From assembly GCF_036014015.1 (NCBI RefSeq), contig NZ_CP107905.1:5146001-5210000 (forward strand): a stretch of DNA of 64,000 nucleotides, read 5' to 3'. The notes beneath the pieces are model-generated. The model saw only the letters and a program-made list of their open reading frames with translations. It searched no databases and was not told where the DNA came from. This DNA is from Streptomyces sp. NBC_00457. Lineage in GTDB: Bacteria; Actinomycetota; Actinomycetes; Streptomycetales; Streptomycetaceae. This document shows positions 9,707-26,266 of the stretch, one piece after another. Both the position numbers and the translations under genes were made by a program. Position 1 is the first letter of the stretch; every line of letters begins with the position of its first letter.

Positions 9707-10888
9707 ATGACCTCCAGCGCACGCCCGCTCCTCAACCGCCGGCTCGCCGAGTTCGGGACGACGATCTTCGCCGAGATGTCCGCGCTCGCCCTGTCGACCG
9801 GGTCGATCAATCTGGGCCAGGGCTTCCCCGACACCGACGGGCCCGACGAAGTCCGGGAGGCGGCGGTGCGCGCCCTGCGCGACGGCCGCGGCAACCAGTA
9901 CCCGCCGGGTCCCGGCATCCCCGAGCTGCGGGGCGCCGTCGCGGATCATCAGCGGCAGCGGTACGGGCTGTCGTACGACCCGGACCGCGAAGTCCTGGTG
10001 ACGGCCGGCGCGACCGAGGCGATCGCTGCCTCACTCCTGGCCCTGCTCGAACCCGGCGACGAGGTGATCGCCTTCGAACCGTACTACGACTCCTACGCGG
10101 CCTGCATCGCGATGGCGGGCGGCACGCGCGTGCCGGTCACCCTCCGTCCGCACGAGGGCAGCTTCCGCCTCGACCTGGACGAGCTGCGCGACGCGGTGAC
10201 CGACCGCACCCGCCTCCTGCTGATCAACACCCCGCACAACCCGACCGGCACCGTCCTCACCCGCGAGGAGCTGACCGCGATCGCCGAGCTGGCCGTAGAG
10301 CGGGATCTGCTGGTGGTCACGGACGAGGTGTACGAGCACCTGGTCTTCGACGACGCCGAGCATCTGCCGCTGGCCACGTTCCCCGGCATGCGCGAGCGGA
10401 CCGTCACCATCGGCTCGGCCGGGAAGTCGTTCTCCTTCACCGGCTGGAAGGTCGGCTGGGTGACCTCGACGCCGGAGCTGGTCACGGCGGTGCGGTCGGC
10501 GAAGCAGTTCCTGACGTACGTCGCCTCCGGGCCGTTCCAGTACGCGGTCGCCGAGGCGCTGAGGCTCCCGGAGACGTACTTCACGGCCTTTCGCCAGGAC
10601 ATGCTGGTCAAGCGGGACCTGCTGGCGGCGGGGCTGGCGGAGAGCGGCTTCGAGGTGTTCAAGCCCGCCGGCACCTACTTCATCACCACCGACATCCGCC
10701 CCCTCGGCGAGAGCGACGGCTTCGCCTTCTGCCGCGCGCTGCCGAAGCGCGCGGGGGTGGTCGCCATCCCGAACGCCGTCTTCTACGACCACAGGGAGGC
10801 GGGCGCACCCTTCGTGCGGTTCGCGTTCTGCAAGCAGACGGGCGTGCTGGAGGAGGCGGTAAAGCGGCTGAAGGCGCTGGCCGGCTGA
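9707..10888 (+). CDS. PLP-dependent class I/II aminotransferase
   Basis: About 393 residues of the fold-type I aspartate aminotransferase superfamily, most like the DapC / kynurenine aminotransferase group. Visible features are GQGFPDTDGP near the N-terminus, the PLP-contacting NTPHNPTG and TDEVYEHLVFD segments, and SAGKSFSFTGWKVGW with the Schiff-base lysine. It would transfer an amino group between an amino acid and a 2-oxo acid; exact substrates are not determined. The ATG at 9707 is preferred because AGGA stands nine bases before it; an ATG at 9698 is in frame. A divergent promoter region lies between it and the small membrane protein gene. Confidence 0.9.
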   Translation: MTSSARPLLNRRLAEFGTTIFAEMSALALSTGSINLGQGFPDTDGPDEVREAAVRALRDGRGNQYPPGPGIPELRGAVADHQRQRYGLSYDPDREVLVTAGATEAIAASLLALLEPGDEVIAFEPYYDSYAACIAMAGGTRVPVTLRPHEGSFRLDLDELRDAVTDRTRLLLINTPHNPTGTVLTREELTAIAELAVERDLLVVTDEVYEHLVFDDAEHLPLATFPGMRERTVTIGSAGKSFSFTGWKVGWVTSTPELVTAVRSAKQFLTYVASGPFQYAVAEALRLPETYFTAFRQDMLVKRDLLAAGLAESGFEVFKPAGTYFITTDIRPLGESDGFAFCRALPKRAGVVAIPNAVFYDHREAGAPFVRFAFCKQTGVLEEAVKRLKALAG

Positions 10889-11849: not shown

Positions 11850-14447
11850 TCAGAGGGTCTTACCCGTCGCCGGGCCGACGATCAGTCCGTCCCCGAACGA
11901 GTCCACCCGGACGGTGTCGCCGTCCTTGACCTCGCCCGCCAGGATCTCCTTGGCGAGCCGGTCGCCGATCGCGGTCTGGACGAGGCGGCGCAGCGGACGG
12001 GCTCCGTAGGCCGGATCCATGCCCTCGTCCGCGAGCCAGGCCAGGGCCTCGTCGGTGACCTCCAGGGTGAGGCGGCGCTCGGCGAGGCGCTTGGTGAGGC
12101 GGTCGATCTGGAGCCTGGCGATGCGTTCCAGTTCGGGCTTGGTCAGGGCCGAGAAGACGACCAGGTCGTCGAGGCGGTTCAGGAACTCCGGCTTGAAGGA
12201 GGCGCGGACCACCTCGAGCACCTGCTCCTTCTTCTCCGCCTCGGTGATGATCGGGTCGACCAGGAACTGGCTGCCGAGGTTCGAGGTGAGGACCAGGATG
12301 GTGTTGCGGAAGTCGACCGTCCGCCCCTGACCGTCCGTCAGACGGCCGTCGTCCAGCACCTGGAGCAGGATGTCGAAGACCTCGGGGTGCGCCTTCTCGA
12401 CTTCGTCCAGCAGGATGACGCTGTACGGCCGCCGCCGCACCGCCTCCGTGAGCTGGCCGCCCTCCTCGTACCCGACGTAGCCGGGCGGGGCGCCGACCAG
12501 CCGGGCCACGCTGTGCTTCTCGCTGTACTCCGACATGTCGATCCGGACCATGGCCCGCTCGTCGTCGAAGAGGAAGTCGGCGAGCGCCTTGGCCAGTTCG
12601 GTCTTGCCGACGCCGGTGGGGCCGAGGAAGAGGAACGAGCCGGTCGGGCGGTCCGGGTCGGCGATGCCCGCCCGGCTCCGCCGGACGGCGTCGGACACCG
12701 CCCGCACGGCCTCCTGCTGGCCGATGAGGCGCTTGCCCAACTCCTCCTCCATACGCAGGAGTTTCTGCGTCTCGCCCTCCATGAGGCGCCCGGCGGGGAT
12801 GCCGGTCCAGGCGGCGACGGTGTCGGCGATGTCGTCGGCGCCGACCTCCTCCTTGACCATGGTGTCCTTGGATGCCTCCTCCTCGGCCTGCGAGGCGGCC
12901 TCCAAGTCCCGTTCCAGGGTGGGGATCTCGCCGTACAGCAGCTTGGAGGCGGTGTCGAAGTCGCCGTCGCGCTGGGCCCGTTCGGCCTGCCCGCGCAGTT
13001 CGTCGAGCTTCTCCTTCAGCTCGCCGACGCGGTTCAGGGACTGCTTCTCCTTCTCCCAGCGGGCGGTCAGGCCCCGCAGCTCCTCCTCCTTGTCGGCGAG
13101 ATCGCGCCGCAGCCGCTCCAGCCGCTCGCGCGAGGCCGGGTCGGTCTCCTTGACCAGCGCGAGCTCCTCCATCTTCAACCGGTCGACGGCACGCTGGAGT
13201 TCGTCGATCTCCAGGGGCGAGGAGTCGATCTCCATGCGCAGCCGGGAGGCGGCCTCGTCGACCAGGTCGATGGCCTTGTCGGGCAGGAAGCGGGAGGTGA
13301 TGTAGCGGTCGGAGAGGCTGGCCGCCGCGACGAGCGCGCTGTCCGCGATGACGACCTTGTGGTGGGCCTCGTAGCGCCCCTTGAGCCCGCGCAGGATGGC
13401 GATGGTGTCCTCGACGCTCGGCTCGGCGACCAGCACCTGCTGGAAGCGGCGCTCCAGCGCCGGGTCCTTCTCGATCCGCTCGCGGTACTCGTCCAGGGTC
13501 GTGGCACCGACCATGCGCAGCTCACCGCGGGCGAGCATGGGCTTGAGCATGTTGCCGGCGTCCATCGAGGAGTCCCCGCCGGCGCCGGCGCCCACGACGG
13601 TGTGCAGCTCGTCGATGAAGGTGATGACCTGCCCGTCGGAGTCCTTGATCTCCGCGAGGACGGTCTTCAGCCGCTCCTCGAACTCACCGCGGTACTTCGC
13701 CCCGGCGACCATGGCGCTGATGTCGAGCGCGACGAGCCGCTTGTTCTTGAGGGACTCGGGCACGTCGCCCTTGATGATCCGCTGGGCGAGCCCCTCGACG
13801 ACGGCGGTCTTGCCGACGCCGGGCTCACCGATGAGGACGGGGTTGTTCTTGGTCCGCCGGGACAGCACCTGCACGACCCGCCGGATCTCCTGGTCCCGCC
13901 CGATGACGGGATCGAGCTTCCCCTCGCGCGCGGCGGCCGTGAAGTCGGTGCCGAACTTCTCGAGTGCCTTGTACTGGCCCTCGGGATCCGGTGTGGTCAC
14001 GCGTCGCCCTCCCCTCGCTTTCTGGAAGGCCTCCAGCAGCTTCTTCGCACTGGCGCCCTGCTGGGAGAGTACGTCGCCGGCCTGACCTCCCTTCGCGGCG
14101 ATCCCGACGAGAAAGTGCTCGGTGGAGAGGTACTCGTCCCCCAGCTCCTTGGCCTTGGCCTGCGCGTCCGCGATCACGGCCAGCAGCTCACGGCTGGGCT
14201 GCGGCGGCGCGACGGTGGACCCGGTCACGCTGGGCAGCCCGGCGAGGATCTTCTCCGCGCCGGTCCGTACGGCGGCCTGGTCGGCGTCGACGGCGGCGAG
14301 CAGGTCGGTGATGTTCTCGTTCTCCTGGCCCGCGAGCAGCGCGAGCAGCAGATGCGCCGGGGTGAGATCGGGGTGTCCCTCTTGCACGGCCCGGTTACTG
14401 GCCGCGTTGATGGCGTCCCGGCTCCGGTTGGTCAGCTCGGCGTCCAC
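11850..14447 (-). CDS. clpB: ATP-dependent disaggregase ClpB
   Basis: An 865-residue Hsp100 chaperone that works with DnaK/DnaJ/GrpE to extract proteins from aggregates. Domain order: Clp N-domain (1-145), AAA+ 1 with Walker A GEPGVGKT (207-214) and Walker B ITFIDELH, a coiled-coil middle domain (about 400-520), and AAA+ 2 with GPTGVGKTE and [14 protein letters not shown]. It ends with a ClpB-type small C-terminal domain and lacks a ClpP-binding loop. The GTG at 14447 has AGGAGGA ten bases upstream. A HAIR operator at 14506-14526 indicates repression by HspR, which is encoded in this window. Confidence 0.97.
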
Positions 14448-14756: not shown

Positions 14757-15095
14757 TCAGGCACTGCGGGGGGTGGCTGGGACGGCCTGTGGGGCGGCCG
14801 AGGGCTCGGGCTCGGCCAGCTGGTGGTCACGCTGGTCGAGGTTCACAAAGATCATTCCGTATCGGATGGCACACCTCACCGGCTGCGGCGCCCCCCGGGG
14901 ACGCCGCAGACACCGGTACGCCCGGACGTCGTCGTCCTCGTCCCGCGTGACGACGACCGGCTCACCGAAGACGGTCACCATCAGCGAGTCACCGCTGTGG
15001 GGGATGGCGGTGGCGAGGTCGATGAAGTGCCAGCCGGAGCGGTAGGCGGTCGCCATTTCACGGCGGAAGGAGCGGTCGTCGGGTGGGGTGGTCAC
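14757..15095 (-). CDS. Rieske-like remnant protein without visible cluster ligands
   Basis: A 112-residue protein. Residues 22-68 follow the start of Rieske-type oxygenase alpha subunits: W22, IPHSGDSLMVTVFGEPVVVT, then RDEDDDVRAYRCLRRPRG where CxHRG is expected. Here Cys62 is kept but the His two positions later is Arg, and the second Cys-x2-His box is missing. It probably cannot bind a 2Fe-2S cluster, so any role is non-redox or lost. The GTG at 15095 follows GAGGGG and starts one base after the stop codon of the upstream peptide gene, so translation is likely coupled. Confidence 0.6.
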   Translation of the reverse strand: MTTPPDDRSFRREMATAYRSGWHFIDLATAIPHSGDSLMVTVFGEPVVVTRDEDDDVRAYRCLRRPRGAPQPVRCAIRYGMIFVNLDQRDHQLAEPEPSAAPQAVPATPRSA

Positions 15096-15096
15096 G

Positions 15097-15258
15097 TCAT
15101 TTCCCCTCGGTGTCAGGCGCGACGGGAACAGCAATCGCCGGCCAGGCACTGTCCGCCCTTACGTCACCCTTCTCACCGGAGAGGCCACTCAGCGCTCCGA
15201 AGGCCACAACGGCGGAGAAGGCGACGACAAGAAACGAGCGAAGCATTCTCTTACGCAT
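15097..15258 (-). CDS. Small exported or membrane peptide (53 aa)
   Basis: The product MRKRMLRSFLVVAFSAVVAF followed by GALSGLSGEKGDVRADSAWP and a short Pro-rich tail has a basic N-terminus, one hydrophobic stretch and an Ala/Pro-rich end. It looks like a secretion signal with a short mature peptide, or a membrane-anchored peptide. GAGGA lies twelve bases before the ATG at 15258. Its stop is one base from the start of the Rieske-like gene. It stands divergent to the first of three paralogous HTH regulators, so it could be a signal or a target of these. No family is recognised. Confidence 0.6.
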   Translation of the reverse strand: MRKRMLRSFLVVAFSAVVAFGALSGLSGEKGDVRADSAWPAIAVPVAPDTEGK

Positions 15259-15394
15259 AGTCGGCTTCGTCCTCACTTGAAGGTCCCTCTTCCCCCGTCG
15301 AGTAAGACGATGGCTCATTCAGGCACGTCATGGCCACACTATCGATGCATCATGTTCCTGCATGTTCAGGACCCTGGGGGGTGGAGATTTGGTG

Positions 15395-16399
15395 ATGAAT
15401 CGGACTAATGCGACGCATCCCCATACTGTGAGCGAGATGTGCGACGAAGGGGGACGCCTCTACGCGAACGCGCTGCGCACGGGACGCATCGCCCGCGCCG
15501 ATGTGGAGCCCGCTCCTTGTCTGATGGACTTCGCTCTCCTCCATCCCGACCCTGACGATCCGGAGTGGCTGCGCCCCGTACCCCCTGCAGTCGCCCTGGC
15601 CCAGCGGCTCAATCCCATCGAGCACGAGATCACGGAACGCAGGCGCCTGTCGATCGAACTGTCCGATGCATTCGAGCCGTTCATGGCGCTCAGTGCCCAG
15701 GCGACCACGGCCACCGACTCGATCACAGTGCTGGAGGGCGGAGAACGGATCAACGCGGCACTCAACCTTGCCACGGCCCAGTGCACGTCCGAGATGCTCA
15801 CAATCCAGCCGAGTGGCAACCGTCCGGAGCGCAGGCTCATGCAGGGGCTGGAGCGGGACCGGGAGCTGATCGAACGTGGTGTGAGGATTCGTACCCTCTA
15901 TCAGCACACGGCACGCTACAGCCCGGAGAAGCTGGCCTATACGTCCCAACTGTCCAACGGCAAGGCGGAGTACCGCACCATCGACGAACTGGTCGAGCGG
16001 CTGATCATCTGCGATGAGGCAGTCGCCTTCATTCCCGCGCGCGACGACCAGCAGGTGGCTCTGGAACTCCGGCACCCCGGCCTGGTCCGCTACCTGATCA
16101 AGCTCTTCGAGTTCCTGTGGGACCGCGCGGTACCGCTGAGCACGGGCGCCCCATACGAAACGGCCTCCGACGGCATCACGGAGATCCAGCACTCCATCGC
16201 CAAGCTCCTCGTCGAAGGGCATGTCGACGAGGCCATAGCGCGCCGCCTGGGCATGAACGTACGTACTTGCCGGGCCCACATAGCCAAGCTGGCCACCTCC
16301 CTCGGCAGCGGAAGCCGCGCTCAACTCGGCTTTCTCATAGCGCAGTCGGGGATCCTGAAGCAGGACCAATCGGCACCGGGAGGAGACCGCCACCCGTGA
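15395..16399 (+). CDS. LuxR-type HTH regulator, paralogue 1
   Basis: A 334-residue cytoplasmic regulator. The last 65 residues form a LuxR-type helix-turn-helix (IAKLLVEGHVDEAIARRLGM ... CRAHIAKLATSLG). The preceding 260 residues carry a sensor-like region with the features TLYQHTARY, AVAFIPARD and LELRHPGLVRYLIKLFEFLW, as seen in TrmB-like regulator sensor domains of actinobacteria. The ligand is unknown. I chose the ATG at 15395, which follows GGTGGAG; an in-frame ATG at 15362 is possible. Its stop overlaps the next gene by four bases (GTGA), so paralogues 1 and 2 are co-translated. Confidence 0.82.
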   Translation: MNRTNATHPHTVSEMCDEGGRLYANALRTGRIARADVEPAPCLMDFALLHPDPDDPEWLRPVPPAVALAQRLNPIEHEITERRRLSIELSDAFEPFMALSAQATTATDSITVLEGGERINAALNLATAQCTSEMLTIQPSGNRPERRLMQGLERDRELIERGVRIRTLYQHTARYSPEKLAYTSQLSNGKAEYRTIDELVERLIICDEAVAFIPARDDQQVALELRHPGLVRYLIKLFEFLWDRAVPLSTGAPYETASDGITEIQHSIAKLLVEGHVDEAIARRLGMNVRTCRAHIAKLATSLGSGSRAQLGFLIAQSGILKQDQSAPGGDRHP

Positions 16400-17376
16400 C
16401 GGCGCACACCCACGGAGCGGAGGAGCTGTGCGACGCGGGCCTGGACCTGTACGCCCATGCCCTGCGGGAGGGGCGGGTGGGTGCCGAAGCCGTGGAAGGG
16501 ACGCCGTGCCTGGTCGACCTGGGACTCCTGCAGCCGGACGCCGAGGATCTGCGGTGGCTGCAACCCGTCGCACCGGCCCATGCCCTGCACCGGCTGCTTC
16601 GGACCGTCGAGGACCGCATCGCCGACGAGCGGCGGCTCGAGGAGCGGCTGACCTCCGTGTTCCTGCCTCTGATGCGCATCGACGGCCGGCATACGGCAGC
16701 AGCGGGCACACCGACGATCACGGTGCTCAACGGCACGGAGCAGATCAACCGCGCCATCACCCAGGCCATGGCCGACGCGCGCCAGGAAGCGCTTTGCGTC
16801 CAGCCTCACGCCGGTCTTCTCGGTGAGCGCGGCGAGTCGGCCCGGCTCGTGGCCCTGGCCCGCGACCAGGCTCTGCTGGACCGTGGCGGCCGGTCCCGGA
16901 CCCTCTACCAGCACACCCTTCGCCATGTGCCCGCCATCGTCGGCTACCACGAGCTGCTGCATGGTGATGACGAGGCCCGCTCCCTGGACGAGATCACCGA
17001 CCGCCTCGTCATTCTCGACCGCACGGTGGCCTTCATCCCCGCCAACCCCGACGGCACCCTCGCCCTGGAGATCCGCCACCCCGCGATCGTCGGCTACCTC
17101 GCCACCACCTTCGACCGCCTCTGGCGCCTCGCCACCCCCATGTACCCCGAAGCCGTCCAACGCCCCACCCTCGACGGCATCACCCCCCGCCAACGAGCCA
17201 TCGCAAGCCTCCTCGTCGAAGGCCACACGGATGCCGTCATCGCGGAACGCCTCGGCATGAACATCCGCACCGCCCGCGTGCACATCGCCAAACTCGCTGC
17301 CACCCTCGGCAGTGACAGCCGGGCCCAACTCGGTTACCTCATCGGACAGTCGGGGATTCTTGACCGGGAACAATGA
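16396..17376 (+). CDS. LuxR-type HTH regulator, paralogue 2
   Basis: A 326-residue paralogue of the upstream gene with the same layout: N-terminal EELCDAGLDLYAHALREGRV, a central region with VQPHAGLLGE and TLYQHTLRHVPAIVGY, the shared TVAFIPANPDGTLALEIRHP strip, and a C-terminal LuxR HTH (ASLLVEGHTDAVIAERLGM). The GTG at 16396 follows GGAGGAGA and overlaps the upstream stop. The 3' end overlaps the convergent third paralogue by 38 bases, so the two may influence each other by antisense pairing or colliding transcription. Confidence 0.82.
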   Translation: MTAHTHGAEELCDAGLDLYAHALREGRVGAEAVEGTPCLVDLGLLQPDAEDLRWLQPVAPAHALHRLLRTVEDRIADERRLEERLTSVFLPLMRIDGRHTAAAGTPTITVLNGTEQINRAITQAMADARQEALCVQPHAGLLGERGESARLVALARDQALLDRGGRSRTLYQHTLRHVPAIVGYHELLHGDDEARSLDEITDRLVILDRTVAFIPANPDGTLALEIRHPAIVGYLATTFDRLWRLATPMYPEAVQRPTLDGITPRQRAIASLLVEGHTDAVIAERLGMNIRTARVHIAKLAATLGSDSRAQLGYLIGQSGILDREQ

Positions 17377-18361
17377 GGGGGCGGGACGGGCCATCGAGCC
17401 CCACCTGGGCGATACGGACGCCCAACTGCGTACGGCTGGCCGCGCCCAGCGTCTCCGACAGACGCGCGATGTGGGCACGGCAGGTGCGGACGCTGATCCC
17501 CAGCCGCTCGGCGATCACCGCGTCCTGATGGCCCTCAGCCAGCAGCGCCGCGATGGACTGCTCACGGTGTGAGATGCCTTCGATGCCCGTGTCGGGCAGT
17601 GCGGCGGTCACGGGGATCGCCAGGCGCCAGAGCCGTTCGAAGACCGTCACCAAGTACTGGACCAGCGCCGGATGACGCAGCTCCAACGCCAGCGTGCGGT
17701 CCGCGTTCGCCGGGATGAAGGCCACCGTGCGGTCGAAGAGGATCAGTCGGTCGATGACCTCGTCGAGGGTCCTGGCCTCCACCGCGTCGCCCATCAGCTC
17801 CAGGTAGTTGAGCAGGCCCTGGCCGTGCCGGGCGACGTGGGTGTACAGGTCCCGCATACGCACGCCCCGGCCGCGCAGGGCCAGGGCGCGATGGAGGCCC
17901 TCCGTCAGTTCGTGTTCGGGGCGGATGCCGCCCGGTTGCACGGTCAGCACTTCCGACGTACACGCCTCGGTCGCCTCGTCCATGGCGGCCTGGATGCGGG
18001 AGAGGCCGTCGAGGACCCGGATCGAGGTGCCCTCGGCGGGCACCGACGAAAGGCGCGGGCCGAGTCCGGCGAACCGCTCCACGGCTGCCACCACCGACCC
18101 GACCCGCCGCTGGCTCGCGCTGACCTCGTCGTACACCCCGCGCAGCAGCCGGGTCATGACCTCCTGCGGGGAGGTGGGGACCAGCCAGTCCATGTCGTCG
18201 GGGTCCGGATGCAGCAGGGCGAGTTCGAGCAGGCACGGCACCGGCTCCGCGTCCTGACGCCGCACGCGGCCCCGCCGTACGGCCCGGGAATACACGCGAT
18301 CCCCCGCGTCGCACAGTCGGTCAGCACCGTGTGGATGCTCGTCCGTCCCGTGCCCGGCCAT
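17339..18361 (-). CDS. LuxR-type HTH regulator, paralogue 3
   Basis: A 340-residue third copy of the same regulator family, in opposite orientation. It shares DRLCDAGDRVYSRAVRRGRV at the N-terminus, VQPGGIRPEHELTEGL, TVAFIPANADRTLALELRHP and the terminal HTH (AALLAEGHQDAVIAERLGI). It is closer to paralogue 2 in the FIPAN strip and to paralogue 1 in the VQPxGxRPE strip. The ATG at 18361 is preferred; an in-frame ATG at 18400 would add 13 residues. Three regulators side by side suggest local duplication with changed specificity. Confidence 0.82.
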   Translation of the reverse strand: MAGHGTDEHPHGADRLCDAGDRVYSRAVRRGRVRRQDAEPVPCLLELALLHPDPDDMDWLVPTSPQEVMTRLLRGVYDEVSASQRRVGSVVAAVERFAGLGPRLSSVPAEGTSIRVLDGLSRIQAAMDEATEACTSEVLTVQPGGIRPEHELTEGLHRALALRGRGVRMRDLYTHVARHGQGLLNYLELMGDAVEARTLDEVIDRLILFDRTVAFIPANADRTLALELRHPALVQYLVTVFERLWRLAIPVTAALPDTGIEGISHREQSIAALLAEGHQDAVIAERLGISVRTCRAHIARLSETLGAASRTQLGVRIAQVGLDGPSRPLIVPGQESPTVR

Positions 18362-18737
18362 CGCCCATCCCACCCCCGGTTCAGCCTCTTTGCAGCGCAA
18401 CTATGAAGGGACCGGACCTGCTCCGCAACACAGCCCGGATCGGATGCCGCCACCCGTCTACACAACTTCAGGCCCGATAGAGCTTCCCAATTACAACACT
18501 GTGCACTTTTTATCCACCCCTCACCATCAGGCATGAGCACATCATGAGGCTATCTACACACGCCCAGGCAATACATGGTTGATCAACCGGGAACGCCGGT
18601 CACACGCGGCCTGACCACGACGGGGATGAGCCGTGGCGTCACGCCTGCCAACCTGGCTCAACGAAAAGCAGTGGGCGCGGCGTTGCTCCGCCGCACCCAC
18701 TCTCACGATCGCAGTCCACCTCAGCAAAGGAGTCTTC
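18362..18737. other. 376-base divergent spacer with a perfect palindrome
   Basis: This region separates regulator paralogue 3 and the secreted-protein gene and must hold both promoters. GGTTGATCAACC, a perfect 12-bp palindrome, is at 18577-18588, about 150 bases before the secreted-protein start and followed by CCGG-GAACG-CCGG. It could be an operator. No gene is seen. Confidence 0.55.
18577..18588. promoter_or_regulatory. Perfect palindrome GGTTGATCAACC, possible operator
   Basis: A 12-bp perfect palindrome in the divergent spacer upstream of the small secreted protein gene and regulator paralogue 3. A LuxR-type dimer could bind such a site. Confidence 0.4.
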
Positions 18738-19076
18738 ATGCGAAAGCGTGCAGGCATAGTAGTGGGTCTCATGGCCGTTTCCACCTTCGTGGTCGGAGTT
18801 CCGACCGCGGAAGCGAAGGTGTGCGCCTACAACAGCTGCTCCTATGCCATCAACGGCTGGAAGGCAGCCAAGATCTGTGACGGCGACAGCGACGGCAACT
18901 ACGTCGAGAGCAACTACTACCGCGACAGCGGCAGCCACGGAACCGTTGCGGAGCACAGCGGCGTGGGCCACTGCAACGCGAGCGGTAACAGCACCAACCT
19001 TGTCTACCGTCACCAGGCCCACCAGATCCGCGACTTCGCTCCGGACGCCTGGTCCAGCTTCGAGTACCGCTACTAG
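18738..19076 (+). CDS. Small secreted Cys-containing protein
   Basis: A 112-residue preprotein. Residues 1-26 form a signal peptide ending VPTAEA; the mature 86 residues begin KVCAYNSCSYAINGW and contain four Cys (CAYNSC, ICDGD, HCNAS) with many Ser, Asn, Tyr and His. Two disulfides are possible. AAAGGAG stands six bases before the ATG at 18738, a strong ribosome site. A terminator follows at once. No family is recognised. It lies between the regulator cluster and an ABC transporter, which suggests a secreted signal, inhibitor or toxin-like product, but this is not shown. Confidence 0.75.
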   Translation: MRKRAGIVVGLMAVSTFVVGVPTAEAKVCAYNSCSYAINGWKAAKICDGDSDGNYVESNYYRDSGSHGTVAEHSGVGHCNASGNSTNLVYRHQAHQIRDFAPDAWSSFEYRY

Positions 19077-19083
19077 AAACTGA

Positions 19084-19122
19084 CGGCGGTGGTGCAGGGT
19101 GTCAGGCTCTGCACCACCGCCG
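19084..19122 (+). terminator. Terminator after the secreted protein gene
   Basis: CGGCGGTGGTGCAG (19084-19097) pairs with CTGCACCACCGCCG (19109-19122), 14 bp, eight bases past the stop codon. It separates the secreted-protein gene from the ABC genes at least partly. Confidence 0.85.
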
Positions 19123-19160
19123 TTCGCGGGTTTCGTGACCCCAGGAACCGGAGATGCCGT

Positions 19161-19865
19161 ATGCCCCCCACACCCACTGGCGTTCACGCCCAGGATCTGC
19201 ACTACATGATCGCCACTCGAGTGATCCTGGATTCGCTGACACTGCACATCGACCGCGGTGAAAGCGTGGCCATCACAGGCCCCAGTGGATGCGGCAAGAG
19301 CACCCTGCTCAGCTGTCTCGCGGGGCTCACGCCCCCCGACCGAGGCACCGTCACCGTCGACGGCCAGGAAGTCACCGCGCTCTCACCGGGGCGCAGAGCC
19401 GCTGTCCGCCTCAGCACCATCGGAATGGTCTATCAGTTCGGTGAGCTGCTCCCGGAGCTGAGCCCGCTTGAGAACGTCGCCCTTCCCGCACTCATGGCCG
19501 GCGTCCCCACAGCCGAGACGTACGCCTGGGCGGAAGTGCTCCTCAAGGATCTGGGGGTCGCCTCCGTAGCAGCCACCGAGTGCGGGGCGCTCTCGGGCGG
19601 CGAGCGCCAGCGCGTCGCGGTAGCCAGGGCCCTGATCGGGAAGCCGCGCGTCATACTCGCCGACGAGCCCACCGGAGCACTCGACAGCGAGACCTCCGAC
19701 ACCGTCGCTGACCTGTTGTTCCGCCTTCCCGCATCCCACGGCTGCGCTCTCGTTGTCGTCACCCACAACCCGGACGTCGCCTCTCGGGCCGACCGCGTTC
19801 TCGCCATGCGTGAAGGGCGGCTGCACACCGTCCACGAGACCAACGGTGCGGTGAATCAGCGATGA
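19161..19865 (+). CDS. ABC transporter ATPase (MacB/LolD/FtsE type)
   Basis: A 234-residue nucleotide-binding subunit. Walker A is GPSGCGKST, the signature is LSGGERQRVAVARAL and Walker B is VILADEPTGALD, with the H-loop VVVTHNPD. The DEPTGALD wording is typical of the MacB/LolD/FtsE group that works with FtsX-like permeases in export, lipoprotein release or peptide resistance. The ATG at 19161 has GGAG eight bases upstream. It overlaps the permease gene by four bases (ATGA), so both form one complex. The permease reading frame is broken, which bears on whether this ATPase still has a partner. Confidence 0.88.
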   Translation: MPPTPTGVHAQDLHYMIATRVILDSLTLHIDRGESVAITGPSGCGKSTLLSCLAGLTPPDRGTVTVDGQEVTALSPGRRAAVRLSTIGMVYQFGELLPELSPLENVALPALMAGVPTAETYAWAEVLLKDLGVASVAATECGALSGGERQRVAVARALIGKPRVILADEPTGALDSETSDTVADLLFRLPASHGCALVVVTHNPDVASRADRVLAMREGRLHTVHETNGAVNQR

Positions 19866-22134
19866 CGATGCCTTCTGACACCAGGACCGTAGATACGTCG
19901 TCTCGGACCAAGTCTCCGGGCCGTACGGCCGCAGGGCGAGGGGGCCGTCTCCGAGTTGCGCTGGCCGTTGGCCATCGCGCAGGCAAGGGCAGCGGCGGCG
20001 GACTGCACAAGGCATCACTGGCCTGCGCTGCGTTCCTCGCACTACTGACCTTGTGGGTCTCGGCTGCGGCTCACACCGTGCATGCCGAGCGGAACCAGCG
20101 GATGACCGCACGCAATCCCATCCCGGTGGCCCAGGGCGACACTGATTCCGCAGTGGCACGGTGGTGGGAGCGGCCGGACACAGTCGGCGACCGCAGTGTC
20201 TCCGTGATCTTCGTCCGCGAGACGCGCCCTGGCACACCGCCCCCTCCAGGGCTTGATCGATGGCCCAAGCGCGGCGAGACGTTCCTCTCTCCATCGCTCC
20301 TGCCGCGGCTCCGGAGATGGAGCACCGATACGGATCGTTCGCCGGGACCATCGGGCAGAACGGTCTTGCCGACGCCGCCGAGCTCGTTGCCTACGTCAAC
20401 CCCTCGCAGTCGGCGTTCTTCAAGCAGGTCTTCGAGCCGAACTCGTATGTCCGCGGTTTCGGCAACCCGAATCAGGCCATGTTCTTCGTGAGCAGCCATC
20501 AGTTCGACCGGGGAGTGGCCGAGCTGGACCTGCTCATCCTGCTCATGGCGGCCCTCCCGACAGCAGCCCTGATTCTTGTGGCCGTGCGCAGTCGAGCCGA
20601 CACCCGGGACCGCCGTCTCGCACTCCTCGAAGCGCTGGGGGCGCCCACCCGCGTGCGTGCCCTGGTTCTGGCAGGCGAGTCGTGGAAACCCGTCGCACTC
20701 GCGGTGATCGCGGCGTCTGCCGCCATCACCGCCCTGTCGTGGACGTCACCCACGCTGCCGTTCACGGGCTATCAAGTCTGGTCGCACGACCTGAGAGCAG
20801 CCCTGCCCAAGCTGCCGGTCCTGAGCCTGGGCGTCCTCGTCTGTCTGATCCTGCTCACAGTCCTGGCGGGGATCCGCAGGCCCCGCCGAACCGGCACCAG
20901 GCCGACCCGCCAACGCAGCCGAACGGCTCGCTGGCCGCACACCCTGTTCATACTTGGGCTGGCCGTCGCGGCCTGGGGGTCCGAACACCGCCAGGTGGAG
21001 GGAAGGTTCGGATTCGTCGCCGGGTCCGTCGTCGCGCTGATCGCACTTCCCTACTCGGCCTCACACCTCGCACGTGTGCTTGGCCGCCGTCTCGCTGAAC
21101 GAGGCGGCGCCAAGGGCGATCCCGTACGTATCGTCGCCGGCCGGTGGCTCGCCGCGCGCCCGGCGACTCTGGCACGCCTCAGCGCCGCACTCGTGGTCGG
21201 CCTCGGACTTGTGACCATCGGCCAGGTTCTGACAACGCAGTTCACCGGCCCTGCAGCCGAAGCACGGGACCGCTACCAGGCATCCGGAGCCGAACTCGTG
21301 CAGGTGCGTTCCCGAGACATTCCAGCGACCGCCGCCGCCTTCACGACCGCCCTGGGCCACGATGAGGTCCTGCAGTACTCACCAGAGCCGGGCACATCGG
21401 CCAATACTCCGAAAACGCGGCTCACCGGTACGTGCAAGAGCCTCCGTGCCCTCGGACAGGTGGCCTCCTGTCCGTCCACACCTAAATCCCCGGAAAGCGT
21501 CTTCACCCAACTCACCCCTGCGGGTGCGAACGTGCTGCGTGACGGCGACCTGGTCAGCGCCCCCATCGCCTCGGTCTGCACCTGCGAGGCACCGACGCAC
21601 GGCGACAAGGCCCTCTACGGCTTCCTGGTGCGCAACTCAAACGGCGATGAAGGGCTCAGCCGAATCAAGCGGGCCGCATTCCAGCACCTGTTCGGTCCCA
21701 TGACCGCCCTGCCCGGTCAGTCGTGGTACCTGGGATCAGCTGCCCAGGCCGCCCAGACGCGTTGGCTGCTCGACGTCGCCCTGATCGGGCTTGCGGCCCT
21801 CGCCGCTGCGGGCGCCCTGGGTGCCGCAGGAATCTTCCTGGAACAGGCGAGGGCGCTCGGTCCGCTGTCCGCCTTCCGTACCGACCGCCGGTTCTACAGC
21901 GGCATCGCCGCCTGGAACATGGCGATCCCACTGAGCGTGGTCGGAGCCGTGGGGGCCGTAGTGGCAGCCCTTCCCGGAGGTTTGCTGATCAACCTCGGCA
22001 AGGGCGGCTGGATGTCACTGCCGCTTCTTCTGGTGGGCCTGGTCGTGGTGGCTCTGGCGGGCACAGTGGTTGCCCTGGCCTGTGGCAGCGTCGCCGCTCG
22101 CCACGCAGTCGCCTGGCGGCCCCGCGGTGACTAA
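19862..22134 (+). pseudogene. FtsX-like ABC permease with an apparent frameshift
   Basis: The first part reads from ATG 19862 with one membrane helix (ASLACAAFLALLTLWVSAA) and stays plausible to GETFLSPSLLPRL near 20310. Beyond that the family-like sequence (MEHRYGSFAGTIGQNGLADA and about nine more helices, ending WRPRGD) is in the frame one base back, so one base seems missing at about 20311-20318. The downstream frame is intact to 22134. A full product would be about 757 residues, usual for the family. This may be a sequencing error, a real mutation or a -1 recoding event; no convincing slippery heptamer is seen. Confidence 0.7.
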
Positions 22135-22158
22135 CTCCTGATTCGGCTTGCCACCGGG

Positions 22159-22344
22159 CTAGCGCCTCCCTACGTGCGCGGCGAACTCCCCCCACGTCTC
22201 CGCCGCAAGCCGGAGTATCGGACCGTCCGAGTCCTTGGAGTCCCGTACGGCGACGGTGCCGGATATGTTGCGGGCGACTTCGACGCACTCCTGGCCGGCA
22301 TCTCCGCCGCTGTAGCTGGACTTGACGAACTCGAACTCGGTCAC
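22159..22344 (-). CDS. DUF397 protein
   Basis: A 61-residue protein with the DUF397 pattern: FVKSSYSGGDAGQECVEVA near the start, then VAVRDSKDSDGPILRL and WGEFAAHV. DUF397 proteins are nearly always next to an XRE-type regulator, as here, five bases downstream of it on the same strand. In Streptomyces such pairs act in developmental or antibiotic control and have been discussed as toxin-antitoxin-like. The gene lies 24 bases from the convergent permease end. Confidence 0.9.
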   Translation of the reverse strand: MTEFEFVKSSYSGGDAGQECVEVARNISGTVAVRDSKDSDGPILRLAAETWGEFAAHVGRR

Positions 22345-22349
22345 CGGGC

Positions 22350-23237
22350 CTACAACTCCTTGCGAATGGTCTCGATCAGGTCGACGGCGTTGCGCTCCGC
22401 CAGCCCAACCCGCGCGATGCGGTCGAAGGTCCGGCCGTGGCGGGCGGCGTCCTCCTGGCTCTCCAACCAGAGAGTAGAAGAAGGTACGTCCATGTGTACG
22501 ACATCCAGCGCTGCAGGCTCGGCGAACGAGATGATGCTGAATGCCCCGATCATGCCCGGGTTGGCGCCCGCCAAGAACGGCACGACCTGGATCGTCACCG
22601 TGCTCAGAACGGCCAGTTCGAGCAGATGCCCCAGCTGTTGCCGCATCACGTCACGGCCACCGACGAGCTGACGCAGCGCCCCCTCGTGGATCACGGCCCA
22701 CAGCTCCAGCGGGCGCTCCGATCGCAGTCGCGCCTGGCGGGCAAGCCTCGCTTCCACAAAGGGCTCGATATCGCTCGGACCCTCCCACGAACCGGCGCCC
22801 ACCGCCACAGCACGCGCATAGTCCGGCGTCTGCAACAACCCAGGGATGAAGGCGAGTTGCCAGGTACGAATGCTGGTGGCGATGTCCTCCAGAGCAACGT
22901 ACTCGACCATGGCAGAGAGCTGCGGGTACTGATTCCACCATCCCTTGGCCTTGCGCCTCTCTCGATCGGTGCGCGCCAGCGCCAAAAGCCGCTCGATCGC
23001 GACTTCGTCGGTCTCGCCGTACAGGTGGCACAGCGCACGGATGTCCGGATCCCGCATGGGCACGCCGCCACGCTCCATCTTGGCGACCTTGGACACAGAC
23101 GCCGCCAGCACTTCAGCGGCATGAGGCTGGCGCATTCCGCATGCCTCACGCATACGCAGCAACTCACCCCCCAGTCGGCGCGCGAGCACTGTTGACACGA
23201 TCTTGCCGCGATCAGGGTCCCGGTCCCTGCCTGTCAT
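22350..23237 (-). CDS. XRE-family regulator with C-terminal DUF5753 (Scr1-type)
   Basis: A 295-residue DNA-binding protein. Residues 15-75 form an XRE helix-turn-helix (LGGELLRMREACGM, then AAEVLAASVSKVAKMERGG). The rest matches the DUF5753 domain with WQLAFIPGLLQTPDYARAV and VIHEGALRQLVGG. It is a cytoplasmic regulator, paired with DUF397 and divergent to an anti-sigma-type ATPase gene. This trio is common and repeated in Streptomyces genomes. Its target and signal are not known. Confidence 0.9.
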   Translation of the reverse strand: MTGRDRDPDRGKIVSTVLARRLGGELLRMREACGMRQPHAAEVLAASVSKVAKMERGGVPMRDPDIRALCHLYGETDEVAIERLLALARTDRERRKAKGWWNQYPQLSAMVEYVALEDIATSIRTWQLAFIPGLLQTPDYARAVAVGAGSWEGPSDIEPFVEARLARQARLRSERPLELWAVIHEGALRQLVGGRDVMRQQLGHLLELAVLSTVTIQVVPFLAGANPGMIGAFSIISFAEPAALDVVHMDVPSSTLWLESQEDAARHGRTFDRIARVGLAERNAVDLIETIRKEL

Positions 23238-23501
23238 CCCGTCTCTCCCGCCTTTGAGTTGGCCACAGCCCGCGGCGACACCGTACTACAAGCAAGCCAG
23301 TTCGAGTACATCTTTCTGGCAAGCGACTTGCTGGCCTCCCATCGCAAGCACTACCGTCAGTACTCAATCGCCCACACAGCGACACCAGTTGGCGGAAGCG
23401 CACCATGCTGCCCACCCCAGGGCCGTAAGGCGAAGCCACCTCCCCCACCCTCCTGGCGTCCACCCCGGGCACTCCGCCCCCGCACAAGGAGGTGCGCCCC
23501 C

Positions 23502-23948
23502 GTGACCGACTCCTGTCCTCCCCACCACTCCAAAAGCCCCAAGCCGTACGACCGTTACGACGCCGTCAGCTACACCCCGTTCCCGCGTAACATCGCCCTC
23601 GCCCGCAGACACGTCGCCCAACTCACCGTCGACTGGGGCCACCCCGGCGCGGCGGGCGACGCAGCGCTGCTGGCCAGCGAGTTGTGCACGAACGCCCTGC
23701 TGCACGGGTGTCTACCGGACCGCCTGTTTCAGGTCGAGACGTCCCTCACGGCCACTGCCCTGCGCGTCGCCGTGACCGACCCGCGAAGCGAGCGGCTCCC
23801 GTACTCCCGCCCCTCCACCACCGATGACCAGTTCGGCCGGGGGCTGCTCATCGTCCGCGCGCTCGCCGACCGCTGGTCCGTGGAGACGCTCACCGTGGGC
23901 AAGACGGTCTGGGCGGAGCTGGACCTTCGAGGTGTGGCGGATGCGTAG
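23502..23948 (+). CDS. Anti-sigma-factor-like ATP-binding protein (HATPase_c)
   Basis: A 148-residue GHKL-fold protein of the RsbW/SpoIIAB-like group. The N-box is LLASELCTNALLHG, the DPRSERLP strip follows in place of the G1 box, and the G2-like box is FGRGLLIVRALADRWSVE. Such proteins bind ATP and usually sequester a sigma factor or regulator; many Streptomyces copies are orphans. The GTG at 23502 has AAGGAGG upstream at a good distance. An upstream in-frame extension to 23259 lacks support. It is divergent to the XRE/DUF397 pair. Confidence 0.85.
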   Translation: MTDSCPPHHSKSPKPYDRYDAVSYTPFPRNIALARRHVAQLTVDWGHPGAAGDAALLASELCTNALLHGCLPDRLFQVETSLTATALRVAVTDPRSERLPYSRPSTTDDQFGRGLLIVRALADRWSVETLTVGKTVWAELDLRGVADA

Positions 23949-24012
23949 TCTGCTCGGCCGTCTGCGAAGGTGCCGCAGCGGTACCTTGGCCGCACGGCGA
24001 AAGGAGACGCAC

Positions 24013-24360
24013 ATGGCGATCGAGTGGCAGGACGCGGTGACCGAGGCCCAGGAAGCCACCGGGTTCAGCGGAGAGGTCGTCCCGCACACCGTCGACGGAA
24101 TCGGATCCGCCCTGCGACTCGACCACCGCGCCGATTTCTACACGGAGCTGGGCGCCCTGGCCGACTCCGGCGGCTTCGACGCGTTCCTCAACCACTGGTG
24201 GACCCAGGCACTCGCCGACTCGGCGGTGGACGAGGACGCACGCGAGCAAGCGATCGACTTCGCCGACGTTGCCGTATCCCTGTACGCACGAGCCGCGGGC
24301 GGCCCCACGACCACCCAGGCCGAGATCGAAGCCCTCGTTACGGGAGCGGAAGCCTCTTGA
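24013..24360 (+). CDS. Putative antitoxin of a RelE/ParE pair (DUF6247-like)
   Basis: A 115-residue acidic, helical protein without membrane segments. Its middle part, HRADFYTELGALADSGGFDA then FLNHWWTQALAD, resembles small actinobacterial proteins found upstream of RelE-type toxins (DUF6247-like; tentative). AAAGGAG stands seven bases before the ATG at 24013. Its TGA overlaps the TTG start of the toxin gene, typical of toxin-antitoxin coupling. No DNA-binding motif is obvious. Confidence 0.65.
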   Translation: MAIEWQDAVTEAQEATGFSGEVVPHTVDGIGSALRLDHRADFYTELGALADSGGFDAFLNHWWTQALADSAVDEDAREQAIDFADVAVSLYARAAGGPTTTQAEIEALVTGAEAS

Positions 24361-24611
24361 GCTACACCATCATCTGGGAAAGGTCCGCTTCCGACGGCCT
24401 CAAGCGACTCAGGACCCGTGACGGAGACGCCGTGAAGCCGCTCCTCAAAGCGATCAACGCGCTCGCCGGAGATCCGGAGCCAGCCACGAGTAGCAAGCTC
24501 GGCGGCACCAGCCTGCGGAGGTTACGCGTCGGCGTCTACCGTGCCACCTACGAGATCGACGGCTCCACGGTATCGATCAAGATCCTCATGGTCGGCAGCA
24601 CCCCTCTCTGA
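24357..24611 (+). CDS. RelE/ParE-family toxin
   Basis: An 84-residue product with the RelE/ParE layout: YTIIWERSASDGLKRL at the start, a middle KLGGTSLRRLRVGVYRATYE with the basic residues of the active surface, and the final strand VSIKILMVGS. RelE-type proteins cleave mRNA at the ribosome, whereas ParE types target gyrase; this one cannot be decided but looks RelE-like. The start is TTG at 24357, overlapping the antitoxin stop (TTGA), with GGAG upstream. A weak start would keep toxin below antitoxin levels. Confidence 0.8.
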   Translation: MSYTIIWERSASDGLKRLRTRDGDAVKPLLKAINALAGDPEPATSSKLGGTSLRRLRVGVYRATYEIDGSTVSIKILMVGSTPL

Positions 24612-24724
24612 CCACAGCAAAGACACGGGCTGCCTTCAGGGCCGCCCGGAGCGCGATTCGCCGCGTGAGCTGCCCGAAATCACCGGGTGATCGCCGCGTT
24701 ACGTACCGCCCTTAACGTCCAGTC

Positions 24725-26266
24725 ATGGCGGACATATTTGACGCGTACGCGTTGGCCGATGCGTGGGACGAGATGTTTGTGCGGCCGGGTGAGGTCAGGA
24801 CCGCCTATGAGCCGGTGCTGGCGGCTCTGCAGCCGATCGAGCCGAGTGAGCTGCGTTTCCGGGCGGACCAGATGGCCCGGGCGTTCACCGACCGTGGGGT
24901 GACCTACGCCTTCGCGGGCGAGGAACGGCCCTGGCCGCTGGATCTCGTGCCCAGGATCCTCGACGCCCTGGAATGGGATCTCATCCAGCGCGGGGTGGCC
25001 CAGCGCGTGCGCGCCCTGGAGGCCTACCTCTCCGATGCCTACGGGCACTGCCGCGCCTTCGAGGACGGTGTGGTGCCCTGGCGGCTGCTGCTCAACTCCG
25101 CCCATTTCCACCGGGCGGCCCACGGGGTCGAACCACCCGGCGGGGTGCGCATCCACGTCGCCGGCATCGACCTCGTACGGGACGAGGCCGGGGACTTCCG
25201 GGTGCTCGAGGACAATGTGCGGGTCCCGAGCGGGGTGTCGTACGTCATCGAGAACCGCAGGGCGATGACCCGGATCTTCCCCTCGCTCTTCACGGAGCAG
25301 CATGTGCTGCCGGTGGACGGGTACGCGCAGCGGCTGCTCGCCTCGCTGCGGGCCGCGGCACCCGGCGGCACGGTCGACCCCCGGGTCGTCGTCCTCACCC
25401 CCGGTCCCAGCAACGCCGCCTACTTCGAGCACGCCCTGCTCGCCCGGCTGATGGGGGTTCAGCTGGTCGAGGGGCACGACCTGGTCTGCCGGAACAACCG
25501 GATCTGGATGCGGACCACGCGTGGCGAGGTGCCCGTCCATGTCGTATACCGGCGGCTCGACGACGACTTCCTCGATCCGCTGCACTTCCGGCCCGATTCG
25601 GTGATCGGCTGCCCCGGCATCCTGAGCGCCGCCACGGCAGGCAATGTCACACTCGCGAACGCCGTGGGGAATGGGATTGCGGATGACAAGCTGCTCTACA
25701 CCTACGTCCCTGATCTGATCCGCTACTACCTCTCCGAGGAACCGATTCTCCCCAATGTCGAGTCCTACCGGCCCGACGAGCCCGGCCAGTTGGAGGCCGT
25801 CCTCGATCAGATCGACCAGCTGGTCGTGAAGCCGGTCGACGGCGCGGGCGGGATGGGCATCGTCATCGGGCCGAAGGCCGACGCCGAGACCCTGGAGCGG
25901 ACCCGGCAGGCCGTCGCCGCCGACCCCCGCGGCTGGATCGCGCAGCGGCCGGTCGCCCTGTCCACCTCCCCCACCCTCGCGGGCGAGCGGATGGCGCCGC
26001 GCCACATCGACCTCCGCCCCTTCGCCGTCAACGACGGCAACGACATCTGGGTGCTCCCCGGCGGCCTCACCCGGGTCGCCCTCCAGGAGGGCAACCTGAT
26101 CGTCAACTCCAGCCAGGGCGGCGGCTCCAAGGACACCTGGGTGCTGGCCGAGGGCCCTGCCGAAGGGCCCGCCCCGGCGCCCGCCGGCGGCCTCCCGGAG
26201 GTCGCACCCCGCCAGCTCGGACCCGACGGCTCCCCCACCGTCGTACAGGAAGGGGCGCAGCAGTGA
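24725..26266 (+). CDS. Circularly permuted ATP-grasp type 2 protein
   Basis: A 513-residue cytoplasmic protein of the COG2308 family. Typical features are VTYAFAGEERPWPLDLVPRI, the strip FRVLEDNVRVPSGVSYVIEN, and the ATP-grasp loop VVKPVDGAGGMGIVIGP near residue 370. ATP-grasp enzymes ligate a carboxylate to an amine through an acyl phosphate; comparative-genomic work has proposed that this family makes or attaches small peptides. The ATG at 24725 is used. The alpha-E gene overlaps by four bases (GTGA) and a transglutaminase-like gene follows, giving a three-gene unit. Confidence 0.92.
   Translation: MADIFDAYALADAWDEMFVRPGEVRTAYEPVLAALQPIEPSELRFRADQMARAFTDRGVTYAFAGEERPWPLDLVPRILDALEWDLIQRGVAQRVRALEAYLSDAYGHCRAFEDGVVPWRLLLNSAHFHRAAHGVEPPGGVRIHVAGIDLVRDEAGDFRVLEDNVRVPSGVSYVIENRRAMTRIFPSLFTEQHVLPVDGYAQRLLASLRAAAPGGTVDPRVVVLTPGPSNAAYFEHALLARLMGVQLVEGHDLVCRNNRIWMRTTRGEVPVHVVYRRLDDDFLDPLHFRPDSVIGCPGILSAATAGNVTLANAVGNGIADDKLLYTYVPDLIRYYLSEEPILPNVESYRPDEPGQLEAVLDQIDQLVVKPVDGAGGMGIVIGPKADAETLERTRQAVAADPRGWIAQRPVALSTSPTLAGERMAPRHIDLRPFAVNDGNDIWVLPGGLTRVALQEGNLIVNSSQGGGSKDTWVLAEGPAEGPAPAPAGGLPEVAPRQLGPDGSPTVVQEGAQQ

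Follow-up and report, generated by a model that had tools for sequence, protein, structure and literature searches.

The window analysed here is a stretch of 64,000 nucleotides within the 10.8-Mb chromosome of Streptomyces sp. NBC_00457. It contains a small peptide gene, pep, and, divergent from it, a regulator gene, R1. We propose that pep and R1 form a polymorphic linear-peptide pheromone system with a non-TPR LuxR-type receptor, a reading to which we give a probability of about 0.78. The design of the precursor, its strain-specific repeats, the synteny of the locus and the coupling between residues of the peptide and of R1 are evident from sequence, as is, in a predicted model, the architecture of the receptor.

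In the proposed circuit, the signal-like N terminus of pep would direct its export, and peptidases would cut it down to a short D-x-x-W-x peptide. This peptide would build up outside the cell, re-enter via an oligopeptide transporter and bind the phospholipase D (PLD)-like sensor domain of R1. R1 would then act through its LuxR-type helix-turn-helix (HTH) domain, at least on the promoter region it shares with pep, closing a population-density autocircuit. The peptide and the matching R1 residues would vary by strain, such that a lineage listens to its own dialect. Two paralogues of R1, R2 and R3, may have other or eavesdropping roles. Secretion, processing, import, binding, the direction of regulation and the targets are the steps that we infer.

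Related loci came from two sources. Nineteen core loci were picked from the best matches of a regulator search and 80 others were chosen by the pep-R1 site, thus they are not a random sample. Among these 99 loci R1 is present in 99, R3 was matched in 79 and R2 occurs in 0 to 4 copies; the 80 stretches chosen by the site are at most 6.7 kb long, so some ends are missing. The features of the window that concern the proposed system are:

15097..15258, minus strand: pep, 53-aa precursor, an open reading frame (ORF) with an ATG start, kept in 19 of 19 core loci
15259..15394, no strand: divergent promoter region of pep and R1
15351..15373, plus strand: candidate regulator site CATGTTCCTGCATGTTCAGGACC
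15395..16399, plus strand: R1, proposed pheromone receptor
16396..17376, plus strand: R2, R1 paralogue
17339..18373, minus strand: R3, convergent paralogue (start as set in this analysis)

Two claims of an initial annotation of this DNA, a 53-residue peptide gene and three paralogous regulators, are borne out by these features (R2 is 50% and R3 47% identical to R1).

The pep precursor and the R1 regulator

The product of pep is a secreted-type precursor, with one to ten copies of a D-x-x-W unit in its variable part. Across loci, a conserved signal-like N terminus (a basic start and a hydrophobic stretch, judged by eye only) is followed by a variable C part (DSAWP, DTVWD, DSSWG, DIGWT, DVGWG). 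The pep precursor of the window has the signal-like N terminus and the unit ADSAWP at residues 35-40. A repeat-bearing precursor of the secreted type is, by analogy with Phr precursors, the design of a peptide-signal precursor.

To describe the units we used 120 distinct precursors: 123 were parsed from 130 loci, and the misparsed L193 and two duplicates were dropped. The automatic start pattern did not fit loci L200, L235, L267, L270, L279 and L284. In L268 pep is broken, possibly a signal-blind strain that still has the receptor.

Units within a precursor are nearly identical, and units of different strains are not. There are 28 precursors with one unit and 92 with two to ten. The two variable residues of the unit agree in 379 of 382 within-precursor pairs, compared with 6.8% between strains, and 2000 shuffles gave at most 49 agreeing pairs. 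The multi-unit precursors are uniform in 89 of 92 cases. Most agreeing pairs (237 of 379) differ in the nine nucleotides before the Trp. Agreement falls to 34% for residues 6 to 9, counted from the unit start. By their first four residues, the units fall into 35 types. A protein search with 37 precursors gave at least 126 matches among the 7986 scored candidates sharing most words. Among the matches listed, the named ones are from Streptomyces and annotated as hypothetical, secreted, predicted or 5'-nucleotidase. Of the 120 matches listed, 114 were new precursors; among these, 97 of 102 precursors are uniform and 369 of 377 pairs agree.

Some precursors of ribosomally synthesized and post-translationally modified peptides (RiPPs) also have multi-copy cores with identical variable residues. 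Hence, pep might be a multi-core RiPP precursor with an antibiotic or metal-binding role, and R1 a local regulator or immunity sensor. A gene for a Rieske-like protein of 108 aa adjoins pep in 19 of 19 loci, which would fit such a role. Yet this protein has Arg (CLR..CAIR) where we would expect the His ligands, going by what we take to be the His-ligand motif of a 2Fe-2S cluster. Of the genes of the window that were tested, just clpB and this Rieske-like gene are conserved alongside pep and the regulators, and no modification enzyme was seen among them. The coupling of residues described below is expected of a sensed peptide, though also of a sensed RiPP. We consider the RiPP alternative unlikely.

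The proposed receptor R1 has 334 aa. In its predicted model, a TrmB-like N part is followed by a PLD-like sensor (about residues 103-249) and a LuxR-type HTH (about 258-322), and the C-terminal GerE-type HTH is present. The N part and the PLD-like domain match TrmBL2 (profile E 9.3e-06 to 5box; Foldseek E 4.8e-13 to 5bpi). The whole-length VIA match of the model has a root-mean-square deviation of 10.9 Å, so the arrangement differs or is unsure. No TPR repeats were found in R1, R2 or R3 (Pfam, E up to 1). Phospholipase D enzymes carry an HxKxxxxD motif. At its position R1 reads H171-TARYSPE and lacks the Lys.

The spacer between pep and R1 is strongly conserved: 77 of its 137 columns are at least 95% conserved across 122 loci. 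A simple scan of the region revealed no sigma-70-like promoter. It holds the 23-bp site CATGTTCCTGCATGTTCAGGACC, which has two CATGTTC steps 10 bp apart. Allowing up to 3 mismatches, the window holds this 23-bp core once. An overlapping 32-base pattern (at most 2 mismatches) is found in 245 of 392 genomes, with one match per matching genome and none for the reversed control. This suggests that R1 may regulate its own promoter, and that a wide regulon built on that exact candidate site is unlikely.

Coupling between the peptide and R1

If R1 senses the peptide, the two should change together. Loci with all of R1, R3 and the Rieske-like protein, 73 of 93, entered the Mantel and column tests. Distances between peptides follow those between R1 proteins (r = 0.312, p = 0.001), with no correlation for R3 or the Rieske-like protein. 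When each protein is tested with the remaining two as covariates, R1 has r = 0.358, R3 -0.188 and the Rieske-like protein 0.054.

One R1 position stands out. Peptide residue 2 is coupled to R1 alignment column 136 (Met134 in the window) with z = 37.4; the next column reaches 8.5 and the best R3 column 4.0. Other R1 columns, many of them within the sensor domain, track peptide residues 1, 3 and 5. In 94 loci, Ser at peptide residue 2 goes with Met at R1 residue 134 in 52 of 52 cases, Thr with Val in 26 of 27, and Ile, Leu or Val with Val or Ile in 15 of 15. The equivalents of residue 134 in R2 and R3 follow no such rule in these loci. A steric logic may underlie the rule: small Ser would go with large Met, and larger residues with smaller side chains.

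The rule extends to loci that were held out. R1 was newly read in 50 loci, of which 2 duplicated known precursors; 47 of the 48 others fit. Ser-Met holds in 21 of 21 and Thr-Val in 14 of 14 cases (together 35 of 35), and Ile or Leu goes with Val or Ile in 12 of 13. The misfit, L330, pairs Leu with Ala, which is new to the 94 loci, yet not Met. The locus parsers (wider-range and held-out) required a D-x-x-W unit, so these counts test the receptor rule and not the presence of units.

Alternatively, the covariation could reflect nothing but the exchange of linked blocks, with the D-x-x-W unit having a structural or cell-surface role. Two observations favour this. About 137 bp separate the two genes, and on the R1 tree the Ser/Thr state changes 18 times, equal to the minimum of 18 in 50 shuffles of the labels. 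However, linkage should lift many neighbouring columns, whereas the observed z drops from 37.4 to 8.5 after a single column. Such a single-column peak makes linkage alone less likely. The Ser-Met and Thr-Val rule in all 35 held-out Ser- or Thr-type loci also argues against mere linkage, as do the independent contrasts on the R1 tree without column 136 (10 of 10 agree). A tree of R3 and the Rieske-like protein requires 21 changes of the Ser/Thr state; there, too, 10 of 10 supported independent contrasts agree (p = 0.00195). When the whole sensor is removed from the R1 tree, 6 of 6 agree (p = 0.031). For peptide Pro5 and column 190, an average of 6.9 of 7 contrasts agree (median p = 0.016). Exchange of linked blocks as the sole cause is improbable in our view.

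Several observations weigh against a pheromone and its receptor. The precursor of the window carries one unit only. Residue 5 of the unit is looser than the rest, with agreement in 255 of 382 pairs within precursors and 14% between them. Only 60 of 235 precursors end exactly one residue past the last Trp, with the pentapeptide at the very C terminus (this count still includes the misparsed L193 row); hence the mature C terminus is uncertain for the remaining ones. In L268, a truncated pep stands beside an R1 gene. The rule for residue 134 has a Thr-Leu exception (L251), and it fails in the distant homologues L314 and L319 from other genera, where Ser goes with Leu. The contrasts for peptide residues 1 and 3 (4 each, p = 0.125) are not significant. 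Across the gap of about 137 bp, the exchange of a short block could move both genes together. With 2 mismatches allowed, 147 of 392 genomes gave no match to the 32-base pattern. Finally, the R1 model has a predicted TM score (pTM) of 0.49, so its domain arrangement is unsure.

The regulator family is widespread. At E 1e-20, a limit that admits distant members, 381 of the 392 genomes sampled from the genus have a match; at E 1e-60, 64 of 121 genomes in the family, from 9 of 17 genera, have R homologues. Three further loci of the own genus, L310-L312, carry five DIAW units, five DPGW/DPSW units and three DPGW units, respectively. Of the seven loci from other genera, L314 (DSAWG), L316 (DMGWN) and L319 (DSQWG twice, once at the exact C terminus) have units behind quite different N termini. 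The filters used found no convincing unit in L313, L315, L317 and L318. We consider it likely that pep and R1 belong to a Streptomycetaceae-wide pheromone language of D-x-x-W-x peptides, with at least 35 dialects, PLD-like peptide-sensor LuxR receptors and a residue-134 switch that flips repeatedly between lineages.

The own genome (L045) also has two distant paralogues of the R family about 5 kb apart, at 2886522 and 2891542. No D-x-x-W precursor was found near them by the filter used.

A core locus and an accessory island

The initial annotation treated the regulators, the peptide gene, a secreted Cys protein and an ABC transporter as one cluster. Judged from gene content and boundaries, this cluster is two unrelated units: a core unit A and an island unit B. 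The remaining features are:

11850..14447, minus strand: clpB
14757..15083, minus strand: Rieske-like protein, syntenic, adjoins pep
18432..24661, no strand: 6.2-kb accessory island between R3 and the CP_ATPgrasp gene
18738..19076, plus strand: sec, 112-aa secreted-type four-Cys protein, predicted all-beta
19161..19865, plus strand: LolD/MacB-type ABC ATPase of the sec module
19862..20491, plus strand: FtsX-type permease, 5' part, first frame
20260..22134, plus strand: FtsX-type permease, 3' part, second frame
22159..23237, minus strand: DUF397 and XRE (Sco1979-like XRE protein), island cargo
23502..23948, plus strand: HATPase_c_2 protein, island cargo
24013..24360, plus strand: unnamed small ORF, island cargo
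24357..24611, plus strand: ParE-type toxin, island cargo
24725..26266, plus strand: CP_ATPgrasp gene, right of the island

Unit A is a Streptomyces core locus. In 19 of 19 loci from the best regulator matches the order is clpB, Rieske-like gene, pep, R1, R2 (none to several) and R3. None of the 19 has a match to sec or the permease; a generic ABC ATPase match occurs in 2 of them (L093, L096).

Unit B consists of sec, its ABC ATPase and the frameshifted permease. It lies on the island, which is missing from all 8 core loci compared: window positions 18432-24661 have no counterpart of at least 80 bases in any of them. Some 60 bases separate the left end of the island from the R3 start as set here. 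On the right, homology resumes at 24661-24676 in 6 core loci and near 28105 in the other 2. The small ORF and the ParE-type toxin at the right end are possibly a stabilizing toxin-antitoxin pair.

Seen from sec, the picture is the same. The run of sec, ATPase and permease occurs in 14 of 15 other loci retrieved via sec; the exception is L038, and in L035 the permease is in pieces. No orthologues of R1-R3 were found near sec in those 15 loci, of which L002 and L041 end at contig ends. L040 has a distant member of the regulator family (37% identical) about 5 kb from sec.

In a single cluster, R1-R3 would sense the secreted Cys protein and control sec and the transporter. The genes are adjacent in the window, as such a cluster requires. 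Yet all 19 core loci have the regulators and pep but no sec module, the sec module is found without R1-R3 orthologues, and the two meet at an island boundary, which together disfavour one cluster. Moreover, at up to 3 mismatches the candidate regulator site has no second copy in the window and thus none upstream of sec. We regard this explanation as highly improbable. The initial annotation had named missing co-occurrence in relatives as its own refutation. The pep-regulator part does co-occur and the single cluster does not. The neighbours it named, clpB and DUF397/XRE, are both in place, but the genes between them are split at 18432. Its idea that the regulators sense a peptide product survives for the 53-aa pep, with the coupling confined to R1, and not for the 112-aa Cys protein.

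The protein itself is as described, with 112 aa and four Cys behind a signal-like start. It does form a conserved module with its transporter, on an inserted island and with no conserved link to the regulators. The MacB/FtsX-type ABC pair is only partly intact: the ATPase is present, but the permease is split by a frameshift near 20300, a point that S. hokutonensis (L001) crosses in a single frame. This suggests that the transporter is broken in this strain, unless a base call is wrong. The frameshift may mark a pseudogene, a recent mutation or a base-call error.

The sec family is small and fast-changing, with 15 proteins in a first pass and 74 with a profile (the window's own included). It is rarer than the regulator family, occurring by profile in 14 of 392 genomes, own included, and its two named relatives are from Streptomyces. 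No Pfam or NCBIfam assignment was obtained for 25 members at E 0.1, including lactococcin 972 (PF09683/TIGR01653). The predicted model is all-beta (pLDDT, a local confidence score, 82.4), and its structure matches are common-fold only, apart from 4ruw. Searches with the model, whose PDB set included 2lgn and 9hkj, weigh neither way on the 2lgn fold. Cys positions were compared between the window (18738-19076) and L032, L033, L036, L037 and L039-L044. In the window form one pair of Cys is N-terminal and the other central, and several distant forms combine a central with a C-terminal pair; L032 and L033 have the central pair only, L040 and L042 the C-terminal pair only. The second pair is thus N-terminal in close relatives and C-terminal in several distant forms, as though a disulphide had changed place.

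The permease leads back to sec. A search found 30 places in 28 of 199 genomes, 27 of them at E up to 1e-39. Of these 27, 26 could be read and 23 have a sec-like gene upstream, window included; setting aside the 7 already found via sec leaves 16 of 19. In L159 there is no ATPase match between the sec-like gene and the permease. G198, at a contig edge, was not read; of the weak places, L178 ends before the upstream gene, and the other two, L177 and L179, showed no sec. Alignment A3 comprises 13 of 15 loci (without L034 and L035, where the sec start is broken or unclear) and permease alignment A7 11 of 15 (without L035, L038, L039 and L041). P0001, P0010, P0025, P0039, P0041, P0042 and P0071-P0074 were left out of alignment A4.

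Some sec-like genes are arranged differently. L038 encodes a sec-like protein (9872-10249) without ABC genes nearby, and comparable proteins, P0027 among them, turn up often in the profile search, several of them in S. mirabilis. L171 has two tandem sec-like genes upstream of a single ABC pair; judging by locus numbers, NPDC002033 and NPDC054904 also have tandem copies.

Tentatively, and at a little short of even odds, we read sec as a bacteriocin-like (or envelope-active) secreted protein whose ABC pair exports it or protects the producer, similar to lactococcin 972. The sec-like gene upstream of the permease in 23 of 26 readable loci and the sporadic distribution (14 of 392 genomes) favour this reading. 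So does the lactococcin 972 cluster, which in the available part of its description joins a small secreted protein to a putative ABC transporter that is taken to confer immunity (PMC4055356). In contrast, none of the 25 sec members matches the lactococcin 972 family, hhalign gives a probability of 3.4%, and the permease family and gene order differ. The lactococcin 972 profile has no match over the cut-off in the own genome. True lactococcin 972 genes exist in Streptomyces too, in 13 of 121 genomes, with another membrane partner and gene order where one was read. TIGR01654 matches 2 of 2 proteins of Streptomyces lactococcin 972 clusters (E 1.1e-10 and 4.2e-17, both short of the curated cut-off) and none of the 3 sec-cluster permeases given to it (E 0.01).

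Comparison with known systems

Unit B resembles lactococcin 972 in its layout, a small secreted protein with an ABC pair, and differs from it in sequence family, permease family and gene order.

The closest counterparts of pep-R1 are the RRNPP systems of Firmicutes (Rap-Phr, PlcR-PapR, NprR, Rgg-SHP). As described in the available part of PMC10075063, these also place a small propeptide beside a regulator of 250-500 aa and use a short linear peptide with intragenic duplications. Of the five criteria stated there, pep-R1 shows three (small propeptide, receptor of 250-500 aa, adjacency), and TPR repeats are absent. The propeptide range is 10-100 aa; pep has 53 aa in the window and lies about 136 nt from R1, and some relatives are longer, up to 127 aa. 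The receptors differ: RRNPP receptors are TPR proteins, whereas R1 combines a PLD-like/TrmB part with a LuxR-type HTH, and the host of pep-R1 belongs to Actinomycetota.

Bacillus Phr peptides are pentapeptides at the precursor C terminus, like part of the pep family. The pep system differs from them in having no Rap phosphatase, up to 10 units and a receptor of another fold. The archaeal regulators TrmB and TrmBL2 share the N part and the PLD-like domain of R1. They differ in that R1 adds a C-terminal LuxR HTH and would bind a peptide, not a sugar. According to the part of the 2f5t record available, the PLD-like domain of TrmB binds sugars.

Actinomycetota signals are typically enzyme-made small molecules, as far as the same part of PMC10075063 goes. 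For Streptomyces, the accessible parts of the sources describe gamma-butyrolactones (PMC13220807), cyclic or modified peptides in general terms, and an oligopeptide signal that BldK takes up in S. coelicolor (PMC11303876). An imported oligopeptide in Streptomyces is also what we propose for pep. In the literature searched (titles and abstracts) we found neither a description of the pep-R1 system nor a class of PLD-like/LuxR receptors for peptide signals.

If our proposal is true, peptide communication in the main antibiotic producers would become open to direct tests, by way of a ribosomally encoded polymorphic peptide, a named candidate receptor and a single residue predicted to set specificity. 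Such a system would also offer a handle on the strain-specific control of development or antibiotic production, and would add a receptor fold to peptide quorum sensing.

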